DNA of 64,000 nt from Candidatus Tepidifontimicrobium thermophilum (GTDB lineage: Bacteria; Sysuimicrobiota; Sysuimicrobiia; Sysuimicrobiales; Sysuimicrobiaceae), in the NCBI GenBank assembly GCA_031296405.1, contig JAVKKH010000005.1, positions 1 to 64,000 on the forward strand, written 5' to 3'. Below are positions 38,427-47,659 of this stretch, piece by piece. Positions within the stretch are counted from its first letter, which is position 1; every line of letters begins with the position of its first letter. A program made the translations under genes and the position numbers. The notes below the pieces were generated by a model. That model did no database searches. It was not told the DNA's origin and saw only the letters and a program-made list of their open reading frames with translations.

Positions 38427-40238
38427 TCACACGCCGAACACGAACCGGTCCGCCACCATAGCCCCGAACAGCAGGGCCAGGTACACCAGGGAGTAACGGT
38501 ACACGGTCCACGCGGTCTCGCCCCGCCCACGCCACAGTCGCCACGCGCGTCGAACGAACCCCGCCCCCAGGCCCGCGGCCGCCACAGTGTACAGCCATCC
38601 GAGGCCTGCGGCGGGCACCAGCAGCAGCGTCACGAGCACCGTGGCCACGGTGTACAGGAACACCTGCCGGTGGGTCTCCGCCTCGCCCCGGACCACGGGG
38701 AGCATGGGGATGCCTGCCGCCGCGTAGTCGTCCTTCAGGTTCAGGCTCAGGGCCCAGAAGTGAGGGGGAGTCCACAGGAAGACCACCGCGAACAGCAGCA
38801 CCGCCGGCAGCTCGACCCGACCCGTGACCGCCGCCCACGCCACCAGGGGAGGCACCGCACCCGCGGCGCCTCCGATCACGATGTTCTGCGGCGTGGTGCG
38901 CTTCAGCCAAGCCGTGTACACGAGCACGTAAAACGCCAGCCCCGCGAGGGTGAGGGTTGCGGCCAGGAGGTTGGCGCCCCGCCACAGGATCCAGAAACCT
39001 CCCACGCCGAGGACGGCGGCGAAGGCCACCGCGCGGGCCGGTGGCAGCCGACCTGCTGCCACCGGACGCTTCTGCCGCGTGCGTTCCATCACCGCGTCCA
39101 CGTCCCGGTCCAGCACGCAGTTCAGCGCGTTGGCCGCGCCCGCAGTCAGGGCGCCGCCCACCAGGGTGGCCAGCACCACCACCGCGGAGGGCTGGCCCCG
39201 CGTGGCCAGCACCAGGGTGCAGGCGGTGGTGACCAGCAACAGCACCACGATCCGCGGCTTGGTCAGGGCCACGTAGTCGGACACCGCAGCCCGCCACGCC
39301 GGTACGGCTCGCGGCTCGGGAACTGCGGGAACCGGGCGGGCCTCCGCCGCGGCCCGCACCAGCAGCGCCACCAGCACCGCCCACAGCACCGCGGCCAGCC
39401 CCAGGTGCGCGCTCACCACCGCGAAGTGCAGGCCGCTCAGCAGGTTCAGCCACCCCACGAAGATCTGCAGGCCGTACAGGGCGGCCGCCCCGTGAGCCAG
39501 CCGTCGAAGGTCCGGACGGTCCTGGCGGGCCCGGACCACCACGGAACCCAGGAGCACCGCCACCAGCACCGCCCACAGCCGGTGGGCAAAGTGCTCCAGC
39601 ACCCCCGGCTCCGCAGGCGGCAGCAGCGCGCCCCGGCACAGAGGCCAGTCCGGACACGCGAGCCCGGCTCCGGAGGCGCCCACGTACCCGCCCAGCAGCA
39701 CCAGCACGTACAGGCCCGCCAGAGCCGTCAGCACGGAGCCGCGGAAGCTGCGGCTCCGGGAGTCTGCGCCACCCGACCGGTATCCCGACGCACGCTGCCA
39801 CAGCACCACCACCAAAGCCACGAAGAGCAGGGCGGTCCCCAGGTGCAGCACCACCAGCCAGGCTGCGAGCCCCCCCAGCACGGTGGCGCCGCCCAGGAGG
39901 GCCTGGACCACCACGAGCCCCAGGGCGGCCCACGCGGGCTTCCGGAGCTCATGGCCGGCGGCCCCCAGGCGGTAAGTCCAGACCACCAGGGTGACCACCC
40001 AGAGCCCCACCACCGCGGCCACCAGCCGGTGGCTCCACTCCAACAAGACCAGGGGGTCCGGGGGCGGGATCCAACGGCCGTGGCACAGAGGCCAGTCGGG
40101 GCAGGCGTCACCCGCTCCCGTGGTGCGCACGACACCGCCCAGCACCACCAGGGCTAGGCTCAGGGCCAGCAGGGCCGCCGAGAAGCGACGGAAATGATCC
40201 ACCGGGTCCGAGTTGCGCGCCGCGCGGCTTTCCGACAA
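38427..40238 (-). CDS. ctaAB: Fused heme A synthase (CtaA/COX15) - heme O synthase (CtaB)
   Basis: 603 residues with about seventeen membrane helices; start TTG at 40238 or GTG at 40202. Residues about 15-295 are CtaA, with duplicated halves 'GGVVRTTGAGDACPDWPLC' and 'GYVGASGAGLACPDWPLC', and heme-ligand His in 'LLEWSHRLVAAVVG', 'LHLGTALLF', 'LEHFAHRLWAVL' and 'SAHLGLAAVL'. Residues about 315-600 are CtaB, a UbiA prenyltransferase with 'YVALTKPRIVVLLLVTTACT', 'NALNCVLDRDVDAVMERTRQ' and 'YTAWLKRTTPQNIVIGGAAG'. The single chain would farnesylate heme B to heme O and then oxidise it to heme A for an aa3-type oxidase. This implies aerobic respiration. No cytochrome oxidase subunit is in the window. 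Confidence 0.92.
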   Translation of the reverse strand: MSESRAARNSDPVDHFRRFSAALLALSLALVVLGGVVRTTGAGDACPDWPLCHGRWIPPPDPLVLLEWSHRLVAAVVGLWVVTLVVWTYRLGAAGHELRKPAWAALGLVVVQALLGGATVLGGLAAWLVVLHLGTALLFVALVVVLWQRASGYRSGGADSRSRSFRGSVLTALAGLYVLVLLGGYVGASGAGLACPDWPLCRGALLPPAEPGVLEHFAHRLWAVLVAVLLGSVVVRARQDRPDLRRLAHGAAALYGLQIFVGWLNLLSGLHFAVVSAHLGLAAVLWAVLVALLVRAAAEARPVPAVPEPRAVPAWRAAVSDYVALTKPRIVVLLLVTTACTLVLATRGQPSAVVVLATLVGGALTAGAANALNCVLDRDVDAVMERTRQKRPVAAGRLPPARAVAFAAVLGVGGFWILWRGANLLAATLTLAGLAFYVLVYTAWLKRTTPQNIVIGGAAGAVPPLVAWAAVTGRVELPAVLLFAVVFLWTPPHFWALSLNLKDDYAAAGIPMLPVVRGEAETHRQVFLYTVATVLVTLLLVPAAGLGWLYTVAAAGLGAGFVRRAWRLWRGRGETAWTVYRYSLVYLALLFGAMVADRFVFGV

Positions 40239-40833: not shown

Positions 40834-42894
40834 TCAAGTTGGCCTCTCCAGCAGCTCGCGGGCGGCCTGGTAGACCCGGTCCGGCGTGAGCCCGAGCTTC
40901 TCCGCCACCACCGCGTAGGGAGCGGACGCCCCGAACCGGTCGACTCCCAGCACTCGGCCTCCGCAGCCCACGTACCGCTCCCAACCGAAGGGCCGGGCCG
41001 CCTCCACCGCCAGCCGGCGGCGCGCGGGGGCGGGCAGGACCTCCTCCCGGTACGAGGGAGGCTGGCGGTCGAACAGCTCCCAGGACGGCAGGCTCACCAC
41101 CCGGACTCGCACGCCCTCGGACCGCAGCCGCTCGTACGCCTCCACGCACAACCAGACCTCCGAACCCGTACCGATCAGGATCAACTCCGGCGGCCCGTCG
41201 CAGTCCGCCAGCACGTAGCCCCCGCGCCGCAGGCCGGAGGCGGGCGCGTACCGGTTGCGATCCAGGACCGGCACCGCCTGGCGGGTCAGGACCAGCGCCA
41301 CAGGCCCCTCCCTGTGCTCCAGGGCTACCCGCCACGCCTCCACGGTCTCCGCCGCGTCCGCGGGCCGGATCACCAACAGGTTGGGGACACTCCGCAGAGA
41401 CGGCAGGTGCTCCACGGGCTGGTGGGTAGGTCCGTCCTCGCCCACCAGGACGGAGTCGTGGGTGAACACGTGCACCACCGGCAGCTCCGCCAGCGCGGCC
41501 AGACGGATGGCAGGCCGTTCGTAGTCCGAGAACACCAGGAACGTGGCCACGAACGGCCTCAGGCCACCGTGGTAAGCGATCCCGTTGGCCACCGCGCCCA
41601 TGGCGTGCTCCCGCACCCCGAAGTGGAGGTTGCGGCCGCGGTAGTCCATGGGGCCCCCGCAGGCGCCCTGCGGGTCGCGCACCGCCCGCAGAGGACTCTG
41701 AAAGTCGCCCAGGCCCAACAACGCGGTCTGGGTGGACGGGTTCAGGTCTGCGGAGCCGCCCACCAGCCACGGGATCCGGGAGGCCAGCACGTTCAGGACC
41801 TTCCCCGAGGCGCTGCGGGTGGCCACCCGGTCCCCCGCGGCAAAGGTGGGCAGGTCCTGGTCCCAGCCCGGCGGGAGCTCACCCCGCTGCGCCCGCTCCC
41901 ACAGGTCCGCCAGGTCCGGATACTGGCGGGCGTACGCCTCGAACCGCCGACGCCAGTCCGCCTCCAGTTGCTGGCCCCTTCCGACCGCCTTCCGGAACTC
42001 CGCCAGCGCTTCCTCCGGGACCGCGAAGGGCTCCCCGTAGGGCCAGCCCAGGTTCCGCTTGGCCCGCAGCACCTCCTCCTCACCGAGGGGCGCGCCGTGC
42101 GCCTCGTGGCGGCCCTGCTTGCCGGGGCTGCCGTAAGCGATCTGGGTCCGTACCACGATCAGGGAGGGCCGACTCAGGTCTGCACGGGCCTGCACCAAAG
42201 CCGCCTCCACCGCGGCCAGATCGTTACCGTCCGCCACCTCCTGGACGTGCCAGCCCAGGGCCTCGAACCGGCCGGCCACGTCCTCCGTGAAGGTGAGCTC
42301 TGTGCTGCCCGCCAGGGACACCCCGTTGGCGTCGTACAGGCACACGAGCTTGCCCAGCTGCAGGTGCCCCGCCAACGAAGCTGCCTCGTGCGCCACGCCC
42401 TCCATCAAGTCGCCGTCGGAGGCCACCACGTAGGTCCAGTGGTCCACGATCTCGTATCCCGGGCGGTTGAACACGCTGGCCAGGTGCCGTTCCGCGATGG
42501 CCATGCCCACCGCGTTGGCAAACCCCTGGCCCAGAGGACCCGTGGTGCACTCCACCCCGGGCGTGGCGCGGAACTCCGGGTGGCCGGGCGTCCGGCTTCC
42601 CCACTGGCGGAAGTTCTTCAGGTCGTCCAGGGTGAGGTCGTAACCCGTGAGGTACAGGAGGGCGTACAGCAACATGGACGCGTGCCCCGCGGACAGCACA
42701 AACCGGTCCCGGTCGGGCCAGTGCGGGTTGCGGGGGTTGTGGCGGAGGAAGCGGGTCCACAGGACGTAGGCCGGCCCGGCGAACCCCATGGGCGCACCCG
42801 GGTGACCTGACCGGGCGCGCTCCACCGCGTCCATGGCCAGCGCCCGCAGGGTGTTCACGCACAGTATGTCCAGAGCCTGCCGCTGTCCGATCAT
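40834..42894 (-). CDS. tkt: Transketolase
   Basis: 686 residues from the ATG after GGAGGAGGGC. Motifs: '[20 protein letters not shown]', '[20 protein letters not shown]', '[20 protein letters not shown]', the thiamine-pyrophosphate motif '[10 protein letters not shown]' to '[11 protein letters not shown]', '[12 protein letters not shown]', '[20 protein letters not shown]', '[18 protein letters not shown]' and '[18 protein letters not shown]'. It transfers two-carbon units in the pentose phosphate or Calvin pathway. It is a stand-alone gene with its own promoter. Confidence 0.95.
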
Positions 42895-42922
42895 GCCCTC
42901 CTCCAGGCTGCAGCTCGCGTCC

Positions 42923-42952
42923 ACCATAGCAGGAACCGGACAGGCCGTCCAA
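42923..42952 (-). promoter_or_regulatory. Promoter of transketolase
   Basis: On the minus strand TTGGAC (42947-42952) is followed after 18 bp by TATGGT (42923-42928), with a TGC directly before it (extended -10). The same TTGGAC box and spacing occur in the btuB promoter. Confidence 0.6.
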
Positions 42953-42965
42953 GAACACCGCCGCC

Positions 42966-45818
42966 GTGACCCCCGAAGGCGACAGCCTGCTGGCCGCGTG
43001 GGCCGAAGCCGCTTCCCGTGGAGGTCCCGTGCGCTTCCTACGGGAGCGCTTCGGAGACCCCTGCCTGGAGGTGGCCGAACACCTCAAGGACCTGGTGGAC
43101 CGCTTGGCCCACCACCGACCGCAGCAGGCCTTACAGCGGGCCCGGGAACTGGCGGACTACGCGGAAGCCGGAGCGGACCCAACCGTCCGGGTGGTGGCGC
43201 GCCTGGCGGTGGCCAACGCGCTTCTCTGGTGCGAGCGGCTGGAGGAAGCCCACGAAGCCTACGAGGCCGCTCGGCGGCTGGCCGACGCACACGGCCAGCC
43301 CCACCTGGCCGCTCGGTGCGGGGTCGGCCGCATGGGGGTGCTGTTCCGGCAGGGCCGCTACCGTGAGGCGCTGGAGCTGGCAGACCTCATCGAGCCGGTG
43401 CTCGCCGCTCACCCAAAAACCTGCCTGTTCGCGGCCCGCGTGCGGGCACAGCGCGCCACCCTCCTCCAGTACCTGGGAGACACCGAGGCAGCCCTTTTGG
43501 CGTACGCCCAAGCGGCTGACCAGTTCCGGACTCTGGGGGAGTCCGCCAACCTGGATCTGGCCGTGGTCCAGCACAACGCGGGGCTGCTGCTGGCGCAGCT
43601 CGGCCGCCACGCGGAAGCGGCTCAAGCCCTCCAGGAGGCCACCAGGCGCGCGGAAGCTGCCGGCAGCTCCCTCCTGGCCCTGCGGTCGGCTGCGGCCACC
43701 GCCTGGTCGCACGTGGCTCAGGGCCGGTACGCGCACGCCCTTCAGGCTCTGGAGGAGGTGGCGGACCGCTACCGGGAGGCTGGCGTCCCTGCCGCGGCAG
43801 CCGCCTACCGGCTCTTCGCTCTGGAGTGTCGCCTGTACCTGGGACAGGCGGACCGCGTGACCCGCGAAGGGCGCCACTTGGCGCACGAGCTGGACGCGGC
43901 GGGGTTCATAGCCGAAGCGGCCCGCGCCCGCTACCTGGCTGCTGTGGCGTGCCGGCAGCGAGGAGACCTCCACGCCGCGGGGACGCTCCTCCAGCAAGCC
44001 CTAGCGGCCCTCGACAGGATCGGGCGGCAGCCGTGGAGGGCCGCCGCCGCCTGCGAGCTGGCCGCCGTGCGGTCGCGCGAAGGGAACACGTCTGAGGCTG
44101 TGGCACTCGCGGACCAGGCCTACCGGAGCTGGGTCGAGGTCGGCAGCCCCGCGGGCACGGGGCGGGCCCTGCTGGTGCGCTCCGACGCTTACCTCCTGCT
44201 GCAGGACACCGCCACTGCCCTCCAGTCCGCGCGAGAGGCTCTCCGTCTGGGGCAGCAGCACCGTATGGCCTGGCTTTGCGCTGCGGCCCACCGCCGGCTC
44301 AGCGTCCTGTGGCCACCAAGGCGCAGCGGGCACTTGCTCAGTGGTGTGCGGTGGGCCGACCGCATGCTGGCATGGCTCCCTGCGGACTTGCGCTCGGGGG
44401 TGTTCGCGGAGCTCGGCGAGCTGTACGCAGCCTCGGTGCTGGAGCTCTGGGGACGGGGGCGGTGGGTGCGGGCGTGGGAGGTGGTCCAGTCTGCCAAGTC
44501 GAGGGGTATGGCCTGGCTTCTGGCCTCCCACGGGCTCCGGGTGCGCCCGCGGGATCCCGCCAGCGCCCACCTAGTACAGGAGCTGAACCGCCTTCTGGAG
44601 GCCCACCGCCGCGGGGTTTTCGCAGAGCTGGACCCTGGCGAGCCACACTTCCCCGGACAACCGGCCGAAGCGGACCTGGAATCCCGGGTGCGGGACCTGC
44701 TGTGGCGGCTCCAGTTGCAGGACCCCGCATACGCTTCCGAGGCCCCCTTCCTGATGCGCACCCTCAGGCCAGCTCTCCCGGATCTGGACAGCGACACGGC
44801 CCTGGTGGAGTACTTCGTGGCCGGCGACCACGTGCTGGTCTTCGTGCTGGAGCCTGATGGACACGTGCTTTGCCACCGGGCCTGCGGAACGCGGGAAGTG
44901 GCGCGGGTGGCCGCCCTGTGGGCGAACGGCCTCCGCGCGCACGCCACCGGACAGCTCTCCACCCGGCAGGCGGTACGTCAGGCCCGTCGGGTCCTCCAGG
45001 ACCTGCACTCACTCCTGGTGGCCCCGGTGGAGCCACGGCTCCGCCCCTACCGCCGCCTCGTGGTGGCGCCCTTCGGGCTGCTGCACGGCCTGCCCTTCCA
45101 CGCTTGCCATGACGGGCACGCGCACGTGTGGGACCGGTGGGAAGTGGGGTATGTGCCCGCAGGGTCACTGCTTCCCCTACTTCAGAAGCGGCCGATGGCC
45201 CGCGGACCCGCAGTGTGCGTGGCCGACGGCCTGCGGGGCCAGCTGCCCGGGGCCGTGGCAGAGGCCCGCTGGGTGGCCCGGCGACTTGGCGGCCGCCTGT
45301 ACGAGAGCCCGAGTCCGGACCAGCTCCTGGCCGCCGTGCGGGACGCAAAGCTGGTGCACGTGGCTGCCCACTGCCGTTTCCGGCCCGAGGCGCCGCTACT
45401 GTCCGCCATCCACCTCGCCGCGGGCCCGGTCACCGCGGCGGACGTCCTGGCAGCCGAGGCTGGCTGTGGGATCGTGGTCCTGAGCGGCTGCGAGACCGCG
45501 TCCTCCAGGGTATTGCCCGGGGACGAGCTGGTGGGCTTCACACGCGCGTGGCTCCACGCCGGTGCCCGGGCGGTGGTGGTGTCCTTGTGGCCGGTGCACG
45601 ATGGGTCCACCGCCCAGTTCATGCAGCAGCTGTACGACCATCTAGCTCGTGGCGCGCGGATCCCGGATGCACTGCGAAGCGCCGGCCTCCAGCTGCGCGC
45701 CCGGTGGGAGCACCCCTGGTACTGGGCCGGGTTCGTCGTGGTTGGGGATCCCCAGGCCCGACTGGTCGAAAACACGGGCTGCGGGCGTTCACCGGACGGA
45801 AGCCTTCAAGGAGGGTGA
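42966..45818 (+). CDS. TPR-CHAT caspase-like protease
   Basis: 950 residues from GTG without an obvious ribosome-binding site; a second in-frame GTG at 43029 follows GGAGGT. Residues about 30-480 are helix-turn-helix TPR-type repeats (for example '[20 protein letters not shown]', '[20 protein letters not shown]', '[20 protein letters not shown]'). A linker (about 480-600) precedes a CHAT domain (about 600-930). The CHAT domain has the opening strand '[17 protein letters not shown]', catalytic His802 in '[10 protein letters not shown]' and catalytic Cys842 in '[12 protein letters not shown]', and the closing '[18 protein letters not shown]' and '[11 protein letters not shown]'. CHAT proteases are caspase relatives that cut partner proteins when their sensor part is triggered, as in TPR-CHAT of type III-E CRISPR and in bacterial gasdermin loci. 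No signal peptide, so it is cytosolic. It forms an operon with the subtilase that follows. Confidence 0.88.
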
Positions 45819-45821
45819 AAC

Positions 45822-47219
45822 ATGCACGGAGGGTGGAACCGTCTGCGCGGCCACCTGGTGGTGGCCTGCCCGGAAGCCCTTTTGGACTCCCTGGAGCAGT
45901 TCCACTCCGTCCGGTGCCTCCTGCCTCCCCCGAGGCCGCAAACGGTGTTCGTCTCGCGGCGGCCTGGTGGGGCGTGGCGGTGGGAAGCGCTCCCTCTGCC
46001 GCCCGTCCGGAGGAGCCCTCCGTGGTTCCGGGCGGTGCGGCGGTTCGTCGTGGAAACCGACGAACCGGAACGAAACGTGGCCCGGCGCCTATCCGAGGCC
46101 GCGCCGTCCGCCCACGCGTCCTTGGACTTCCAAGTCCGCGGGCAGGCGGAGGTGGCCCACGGCAGCCCGACCCCGGAGTCCGCTATCTGCGTTCCCGACG
46201 CCGACGAAGTGGACTTCGCCAGCCAGCCGGCCTTCGAGCAGATCGGGCTTTTGCAGTACGAGCGGGTAAAGTTCCGGCCCCGAGGGGAGGGTGTGACCGT
46301 CGTCATCCTGGACAGCGGCCCCGGGCTCGGGCCCGACGGCCTGCCACGCCTGGACCCCGGCTGCGTGGATGTGTATGTGGACTGGCCGCAACGCGTGCCG
46401 GAGAACTTCCCGGTCTGGGTGCCCCTGACGGACGCGGAGGACCCTCCCTGCGGGCTGGCGGAGCGCTGGCGGGCCAGGGCCTGGTCGCCGCTACTGGCCA
46501 CCGACGCACAGATGCAAGACTACCGCGCCCACCACGGGGCCATGGTGGCGTCGCTGGTCCGCCGCGTGGCCCCTGGGGCCCGCGTGGTCCTGGTGGCGCT
46601 GCTGAACCGCGAGCTCGCGACCGCCACCTACGAGCTCGCGGAGGTCCTCCGGTGGGCTTACGAGCTCGCAAGCCTTCCCGTGCGGCACCCCGACACCCGG
46701 GCGCCCCTGGTGACCCTCCCCCTCGCGTACAACCTGAGCCTGGGGGTGGACCGGTCCCAGCCGGAGACGGTGCAGTCCTGCGCGCTCCTGGCGGTGGTGG
46801 ACGAGCTGGCGCGCCAGCGCGCGGTGCTGGTAGCGGCGAGCGGCAACCTGTCCCAGGGCCGGCCCGAAAACTGCCTGGAGCCTGCCGCCTACGGGCACTT
46901 CGGAGACACCCTGGCCACCCAGACACAGGTGATCCCGGTGGCGGCCACCAGTGCTGCGCAGCCAGACCGTTACGCGTGGTTCAGCAACGAAGCGCACTTC
47001 GCAGCCCCGGGGGAGGACCTCATCCTGGACTGCGGGGCGGTGCTGGCGGGGTCCCGCTACGTCCGCTGGTCGGGCACCTCCTTCGCGGCAGGCCTGGTCA
47101 CCGGCGTGGTGGCGGTGTTGCTGAGTACGGGGCTTTCGCCCGAGATGGTGAAGGCCAGGCTGTGGGAACGGGCCGCGCGGCCCTCACGGTGGGACGGGGT
47201 GCACGCGGTCCGCCTGTGA
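45822..47219 (+). CDS. Cytosolic subtilisin-like (S8) protease paired with CHAT
   Basis: 465 residues, ATG 3 bp after the CHAT stop, behind GGAGGG. The catalytic set is complete: Asp164 ('VTVVILDSGPG'), His238 ('RAHHGAMVASLV'), oxyanion Asn342 ('VLVAASGN') and Ser420 ('RWSGTSFAAGLVTG'). There is no signal peptide and no membrane helix, unlike most S8 enzymes. Residues 1 to about 150 match no family I know (HLVVACPEALLDSLEQFHSV, WFRAVRRFVVETDEPERNVA) and are the size of a propeptide or a substrate/partner-binding module. Tight coupling to CHAT suggests that the two act together, for instance CHAT releasing the S8 domain or both acting on one target. Confidence 0.88.
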   Translation: MHGGWNRLRGHLVVACPEALLDSLEQFHSVRCLLPPPRPQTVFVSRRPGGAWRWEALPLPPVRRSPPWFRAVRRFVVETDEPERNVARRLSEAAPSAHASLDFQVRGQAEVAHGSPTPESAICVPDADEVDFASQPAFEQIGLLQYERVKFRPRGEGVTVVILDSGPGLGPDGLPRLDPGCVDVYVDWPQRVPENFPVWVPLTDAEDPPCGLAERWRARAWSPLLATDAQMQDYRAHHGAMVASLVRRVAPGARVVLVALLNRELATATYELAEVLRWAYELASLPVRHPDTRAPLVTLPLAYNLSLGVDRSQPETVQSCALLAVVDELARQRAVLVAASGNLSQGRPENCLEPAAYGHFGDTLATQTQVIPVAATSAAQPDRYAWFSNEAHFAAPGEDLILDCGAVLAGSRYVRWSGTSFAAGLVTGVVAVLLSTGLSPEMVKARLWERAARPSRWDGVHAVRL

Positions 47220-47659
47220 GAGGCGAGCGGCGCGCCGAACACCGACCGTGCCCGGTTTGCGGCACGTACCCAGCGGCGCAGGGGTGGTCTCGTACCCGCG
47301 GGCGGGACGGCGGTCACGGGGGAGGTGACCCTCTCGGGAGGTGCAGCAGGGGCCTCCTGGCCACGCCCACGGCGGCCTGACCGCCGGGGTGCTCGACGAG
47401 GCCAAGGGCACCGCTGTGTGGCGCGCGGGCTACCTCACGGGTGTAGGTGGACGATCGCCCTCCCCCTGGACCGGGTGGTAAGCGTCGAAGCGCGGCTGGG
47501 CACGTCACCCGCAGCCTGCGGGGCTTCCTGGAAAGCCCCCGAACACCCCTAACCGCCCGCTGGAACACAGGCGAGTGGCGAGGAGCAACGACCGGCGCTC
47601 CCCGGCGCACCCACCGGCCGCCGTTCCTCGCTGAAGCCAAGGCCCGCCGCGTCGAGCAC
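47220..47659 (+). other. Gene-free stretch with decayed coding fragments
   Basis: No intact gene is visible on either strand. Short protein-like pieces occur in different frames of the plus strand, such as 'GGLTAGVLDEAKGTAVWRAG' near 47370-47430 and 'WTIALPLDRVVSVEARLG' near 47447-47500, with frame changes and stops between them. This looks like an old, disrupted gene rather than regulatory DNA. Confidence 0.4.

Follow-up and report, generated by a model that had tools for sequence, protein, structure and literature searches.

Two adjacent proteases and their relatives in other phyla

What might a caspase-like protease and a subtilisin-like protease do together when their genes are separated by 3 base pairs (bp)? 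The question is raised by a 64,000-nucleotide stretch of Candidatus Tepidifontimicrobium thermophilum (contig JAVKKH010000005.1, positions 1 to 64,000; hereafter the window), from the family Sysuimicrobiaceae of the Sysuimicrobiota/CSP1-3 candidate phylum, whose description includes thermophilic members (PMC11604079). A first-pass annotation had placed here a 950-residue TPR-CHAT protein with a His802/Cys842 dyad and, 3 bp downstream of its stop codon, a 465-residue S8 protease with Asp164, His238, Asn342 and Ser420; the coordinates, the intact open reading frames and the residues all proved correct.

42966-45818, forward strand: TPR-CHAT caspase-like protease, 950 residues, GTG start; start codon 38 bp from that of the divergent transketolase
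45822-47219, forward strand: leaderless S8 serine protease, 465 residues, ATG start

The same annotation had held that absence of the pairing from related genomes would count against a functional pair. Adjacent TPR-CHAT and S8 orthologs were found in each of the seven family genomes available, representing three genera. Elsewhere, comparison of the coordinates of CHAT genes with those of S8 genes, followed by reading of the loci, recovered seven pairs outside the phylum, spread over six genomes (L082, L083, L084 twice, L085, L086, and L087). Further recurring genes, which the annotation had suggested looking for, are also present: an extracytoplasmic function (ECF) sigma factor and an anti-sigma-like gene lie directly upstream in 6/6 outside pairs with upstream sequence. 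The anti-sigma-like protein of these loci is a zinc-finger protein of ~205 residues with an invariant HxxxxCxxC core, and the upstream genes of L087 matched the NCBIfam models sigma70-ECF (8.6e-21) and anti-sigma (4.9e-06). At L084:6855-18000 the whole sigma/anti-sigma-like/TPR-CHAT/S8 operon is tandemly duplicated, and the TPR-CHAT of the second copy is spread over two reading frames. A restriction of the pair to the family was considered and rejected: a first wide search with the family S8 profile, together with the 30 best-scoring CHAT loci, gave no relatives, but the coordinate comparison did, the early null result being due to insufficient search sensitivity and sampling.

Phylogenetic analysis placed the seven outside partner S8s in one clade relative to control S8s, that is, other S8s of the same and related genomes (support 100/97 without the family sequences). 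Support for the clade was 97/95 against 14 control S8s when the S8s of the window's family were included, and 91/97 when four of these 14 controls were removed. Profile comparison of the family S8s with the outside partners aligned residues 130-451 (99.6%, E 1.5e-24), the alignment beginning at about residue 130, after the family's N-terminal region. The CHAT tree grouped the family's TPR-CHAT with sigma-associated TPR-CHATs, with values in the Shimodaira-Hasegawa approximate likelihood ratio test (SH-aLRT) of 85-91, below the strong threshold.

This recurrence bears on another explanation of the locus, ordinary housekeeping proteolysis by two unrelated proteases that came to be co-transcribed by chance beside a transketolase gene. 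Fixation by vertical inheritance in one family, metabolic neighbours, and the lack of any match to defence models among those neighbours would be compatible with such a role, but the two proteases are found paired again in unrelated lineages, with an S8 clade of their own. Chance does not account for this, and we strongly disfavour this explanation, to which we leave very little probability.

The N-termini of the S8 proteins differ between the two groups. All seven outside partner S8s carry an export signal in the form of a hydrophobic N-terminus (KD15 1.8-2.8), several with lipobox-like cysteines. The S8s of the window's family have no hydrophobic N-terminus (KD15 0.9-1.4) and, as the first-pass annotation had stated for the window S8, no signal peptide was seen in its N-terminus, nor was a transmembrane stretch. 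TPR-CHAT carries no signal either in the window's family or in the outside loci. Outside the phylum, S8 is predicted to be exported and TPR-CHAT looks cytosolic; the exported S8 of the outside operons is not found in the window's family. Taken at the level of sequence, these comparisons show that the window pair shares ancestry with the sigma/anti-sigma-like/TPR-CHAT/S8 loci and that the S8 of the window's family has lost its export signal.

The anti-sigma-like protein also has a homolog in the window's family, where it is encoded in trans. This adaptor (hhalign 98.7%, E 2.6e-16 to the outside protein) is full length in five of the seven family genomes, away from the TPR-CHAT/S8 locus, and no full-length copy was found in other genomes of the phylum (0/36). 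The adaptor gene stands beside a divergent XRE-type regulator gene at L122:2646-3991, L123:530-1893, L125:4523-5890, and L126:4808-6172, which suggests that this regulator is a new regulatory partner of the adaptor.

A candidate mechanism and the role of S8

We propose, with about even chances of being right, that TPR-CHAT acts as a gated protease with the anti-sigma-like protein as its substrate, that S8 is a dedicated effector protease, and that the window pair is a cytosolic derivative of a four-gene operon ordered as ECF sigma factor, zinc-finger anti-sigma-like protein, TPR-CHAT, and dedicated S8. The TPR superhelix would restrain the separase/Csx29-like CHAT domain until a signal or partner is sensed; the activated CHAT domain would then cut the anti-sigma-like adaptor, encoded elsewhere in the window's family, as Csx29 cuts Csx30, and cleavage of the adaptor would set off a programme of stress response or defence. 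S8, translated together with TPR-CHAT, would serve as the system's own effector protease, exported in other lineages and cytosolic in the window's family, where it is probably a zymogen whose N-terminal region spans 130 residues. What we infer here is the order of events, the CHAT substrate, the zymogen state of S8, and the triggering signal. The anti-sigma-like protein is the better-supported substrate of CHAT, and S8 the output protease, because the outside S8s are predicted to be exported, CHAT looks cytosolic, and the constant neighbours of CHAT are the ECF sigma factor and the anti-sigma-like gene. A caspase-type protease would probably control a stress response here without CRISPR parts.

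Several observations weigh against this proposal. Neither an ECF sigma factor nor an anti-sigma-like gene was found at the family locus, in six family neighbourhoods and the window, and the adaptor, in four of its five genomes, adjoins the XRE-type regulator, not a sigma factor. The window's own assembly (94.8% complete) yielded neither the adaptor nor the neighbouring regulator; the adaptor branch may have been lost in the window's strain, an assembly gap being the alternative. The S8 branch leading to the window's family is long (2.3-2.8 changes per column) and its exact placement carries risk, and the comparison outside the phylum draws on about 20 loci examined in detail.

Loci without S8 bear on the direction of control between the two proteases. 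There is a slim chance that S8 regulates CHAT, a stress-activated subtilase trimming the TPR or linker region and so switching TPR-CHAT on or off, in the style of an initiator acting on an executioner. Co-expression and a shared compartment in the window's family would allow this, as would a linker at about residues 550-569 of TPR-CHAT, modelled with low confidence by AlphaFold2 (AF2), but L096 and, more weakly, L089 hold sigma, anti-sigma-like and TPR-CHAT genes without S8, so that CHAT does not need S8, and in other phyla S8 is exported.

At TPR-CHAT loci without S8 (L096:2442-8124, L099:2951-4924, L090:6708-8501), the next genes encode large exported, HEAT-like, and ankyrin proteins, as if the output gene after TPR-CHAT were exchangeable. 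In another family of the same phylum, a TPR-CHAT of a different kind begins with a signal-peptide-like N-terminus; an ECF sigma factor is encoded before it, and two RCC1-repeat lipoproteins after it (L047:7417-16247). The TPR-CHAT of genome G021 was ruled out as a relative of the pair, its downstream genes encoding RCC1-repeat lipoproteins.

Domains and catalytic residues

The larger protein combines a TPR superhelix, presumed to be the sensor or partner-binding part, with a C-terminal CHAT domain.

42966-44375, forward strand: TPR superhelix, about residues 1-470 (Pfam TPR_12 and all-helical AF2 region)
44988-45749, forward strand: CHAT protease domain, residues 675-928 (Pfam and alignment of dyad residues)
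45369-45371 and 45489-45491, forward strand: His802 and Cys842 of the TPR-CHAT dyad, both invariant

The CHAT domain (PF12770) scored 180.7 bits against a curated cut-off of 24 (E 5.6e-53), and this score together with the His-Cys dyad identifies the protein as a CHAT protease. TPR_12 was matched at E 1.9e-17, with several TPR repeats; Pfam gave TPR and CHAT alone, and no nucleoside triphosphatase (NACHT/STAND) domain. His802 and Cys842 are invariant in full-length orthologs from six aligned genomes. The AF2 model has a mean predicted local distance difference test (pLDDT) value of 83.7, and its nearest solved folds are separase and the TPR-CHAT of Csx29/Craspase. The window's genome (2.44 Mb, 38 contigs) contains a single CHAT gene and two S8 genes.

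45849-46223, forward strand: S8 N-terminal region, residues 10-134 (AF2 secondary structure, alignment)
46311-46313, 46533-46535, 46845-46847, and 47079-47081, forward strand: Asp164, His238, Asn342, and Ser420 of the S8 catalytic set, all invariant

The smaller protein matched Peptidase_S8 (PF00082) at 55.1 bits, above the cut-off of 21.8 (E 9.5e-15), and has the Asp/His/Ser triad and oxyanion Asn of a subtilase; all four residues are invariant in full-length orthologs from six aligned genomes. No S8 matches were found in plasmid and phage collections. The AF2 model of the whole protein is poor (pLDDT 51.9), with an acceptable part at residues 10 to ~101, a domain of two beta-alpha-beta units that resembles a subtilisin prodomain in outline of secondary structure. 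It is followed by a linker with an HG.PTPD motif conserved in the family alignment. From the model, the N-terminal region is presumed to be an inhibitory prodomain with a processing region. Its assignment as an I9-type propeptide was tried and stays putative: the secondary structure is suggestive, but all sequence and fold matches were non-significant. Five cysteines (C32, C210, C320, C351, and C404; window 45822-47219) are invariant in the S8s of the window's family, which is uncommon among subtilisins and may point to a redox or metal function.

The linker also invites the cascade foreseen by the first-pass annotation, in which activated TPR-CHAT would cut S8 within about residues 102-134 and release a free cytosolic subtilisin that degrades cell proteins, leading to dormancy or death. 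The conserved motif between the N-terminal and catalytic domains, the constant 1:1 pairing with tight translational coupling, and the absence of an export signal from the family S8s would all fit, and activation of proenzymes by proteases is an established logic of prokaryotic immunity (canu loci, PMC12799240). We nevertheless consider a direct cascade unlikely, although plausible: the outside relatives export S8 where CHAT looks cytosolic, so that in the ancestral arrangement S8 was not positioned as a substrate for CHAT, and the prodomain is putative, the model being poor (pLDDT 52). Furthermore, subtilisins usually remove their own prodomains. Such a cascade would be possible only where both proteins share a compartment, as in the window's family with its leaderless S8.

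Conservation, selection, and inheritance

Orthologs in the family show 56-88% (S8) and 44-85% (CHAT) identity, and the pair is divergently oriented from transketolase in all seven genomes. Ratios of nonsynonymous to synonymous substitution rates (dN/dS) between sister species were 0.26-0.29 for CHAT and 0.27 for S8, compared with 0.11 for transketolase and 0.17 for the neighbouring ligase. By these measures, both genes are functional and under purifying selection, and evolve faster than the neighbouring housekeeping genes. The first-pass suggestion of a mobile accessory system did not survive this comparison: synteny in 7/7 genomes, invariant catalytic residues, and purifying selection imply that the pair is inherited, not mobile. 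Single frameshifts occur in TPR-CHAT of G040 (L046:9354-12208) and in S8 of G036 (L042:11540-12947); these may be assembly or sequencing errors, real decay being the alternative.

The pattern of inheritance also bears on a role in anti-phage abortive infection, with TPR-CHAT sensing infection and S8 killing or arresting the cell. In favour of this role, several bacterial immune systems employ TPR-CHAT and caspase-like proteases (PMC12799240, PMC10028731), and the pair evolves faster than its neighbours. The locus, however, has no defence island and no sign of mobility, keeps its synteny across the family, and gave only weak PADLOC matches, with no match to defence models among the neighbours, all of which fit a stress response better. 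We regard an anti-phage role as improbable and favour a stress response because of the stable inheritance and ordinary neighbours of the pair.

Comparison with known systems

The closest parallel to the proposed sigma-linked mechanism is type III-E Craspase with its Csx29/Csx30/CASP-sigma components, in which the TPR-CHAT protease Csx29 cleaves the ECF sigma factor inhibitor Csx30 (PMC10028731). The window TPR-CHAT shares the TPR and CHAT architecture, the His-Cys dyad, and the fold, and in the outside loci, too, TPR-CHAT is linked with an ECF sigma factor and with the protein that putatively inhibits it. Unlike Craspase, the window's genome has no Cas7-11 or any RAMP protein (no match to PF03787), TPR-CHAT scored 37.9 bits against the NCBIfam Csx29 cut-off of 300, S8 is a dedicated partner, and the anti-sigma-like protein differs in size and contains a zinc finger. 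Assignment to a type III-E CRISPR system was rejected on the missing RAMP protein and on a score far under the Csx29 cut-off. The first-pass view of a locus free of CRISPR, NACHT, and gasdermin parts held: no NACHT or gasdermin gene adjoins the pair (the rest of the genome was not searched for gasdermin).

Similar logic is found in CalpL/CalpT/CalpS, where a signal-gated protease frees an ECF sigma factor from its anti-sigma, CalpL cleaving CalpT (PMC11417357); SAVED-Lon, however, is another protease family with a cyclic-nucleotide sensor, and belongs to CRISPR type III. Fungal gasdermins are controlled mainly by proteases of two types, S8 (HET-Q2) and CHAT, and gasdermin activation by a CHAT that bears TPRs is on record (PMC10989679, PMC12881547), but the two types are alternatives there and paired here, and, unlike the protease of a bacterial gasdermin operon, the window pair has no adjoining gasdermin candidate. 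The canu loci also encode a caspase-type protease together with an effector enzyme (PMC12799240), although that effector is a metallo-beta-lactamase nuclease instead of PF00082, and the canu caspase has an Ig-like domain and is not a TPR-CHAT. Secreted or lipoprotein S8s with a prodomain (fervidolysin, mycosin-like) share the PF00082 fold and triad, and the partner S8 of L087 has a fervidolysin-type prodomain; the window S8 differs in its lack of an export signal and in its divergent N-terminal domain.

By analogy, the locus is most likely TPR-CHAT control of sigma-linked signalling in a new form. No CHAT-subtilase operon or CRISPR-free ECF/TPR-CHAT operon was described beyond Craspase in the open-licence literature, a scope that excludes most subscription journals, and this is weak evidence of newness. 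The TPR-CHAT of Craspase has so far been understood in one role alone, that of an RNA-guided enzyme cutting an ECF sigma factor inhibitor; CRISPR-free operons with sigma and inhibitor neighbours and a dedicated subtilase suggest a pre-CRISPR role for TPR-CHAT and name a candidate substrate. Tentatively, and with more doubt than confidence, CRISPR-free TPR-CHATs could form a widespread class that controls ECF sigma factors through cleavage of zinc-finger anti-sigmas and has its own subtilase, with Craspase as one CRISPR-captured branch and the window's family rewired to a relay of two cytosolic proteases through loss of the S8 export signal and separation from sigma. The family also offers a natural experiment, a normally exported partner protease having turned cytosolic.

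Gene junction and neighbouring genes

45808-45815, forward strand: ribosome-binding site of the S8 gene, AAGGAGGG, abutting the TPR-CHAT stop codon, just before it
40834-42927, reverse strand: transketolase, the divergent syntenic neighbour in 7/7 genomes; context, outside the system
47228-47501, forward strand: degraded 4HBT (hotdog) thioesterase gene, from comparison with sister genome G040

The TPR-CHAT/S8 junction measures -53, -4, -4, -4, ~0, +3, and +21 bp across the seven family genomes, and such short overlaps or gaps indicate that the two genes are probably translationally coupled. The genes adjoining the window pair encode transketolase and an AMP-binding ligase. The first-pass annotation had noticed decayed DNA beside the pair and read it as a mark of mobility; degraded sequence is indeed present, but it is the remnant of the 4HBT thioesterase gene, intact in G040 at 7 bp downstream of S8, and is no sign of mobility. 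Elsewhere in the window, on the reverse strand at 38427-40238, a COX15-CtaA heme A synthase is fused to a UbiA/CtaB heme O synthase in one 603-residue protein.

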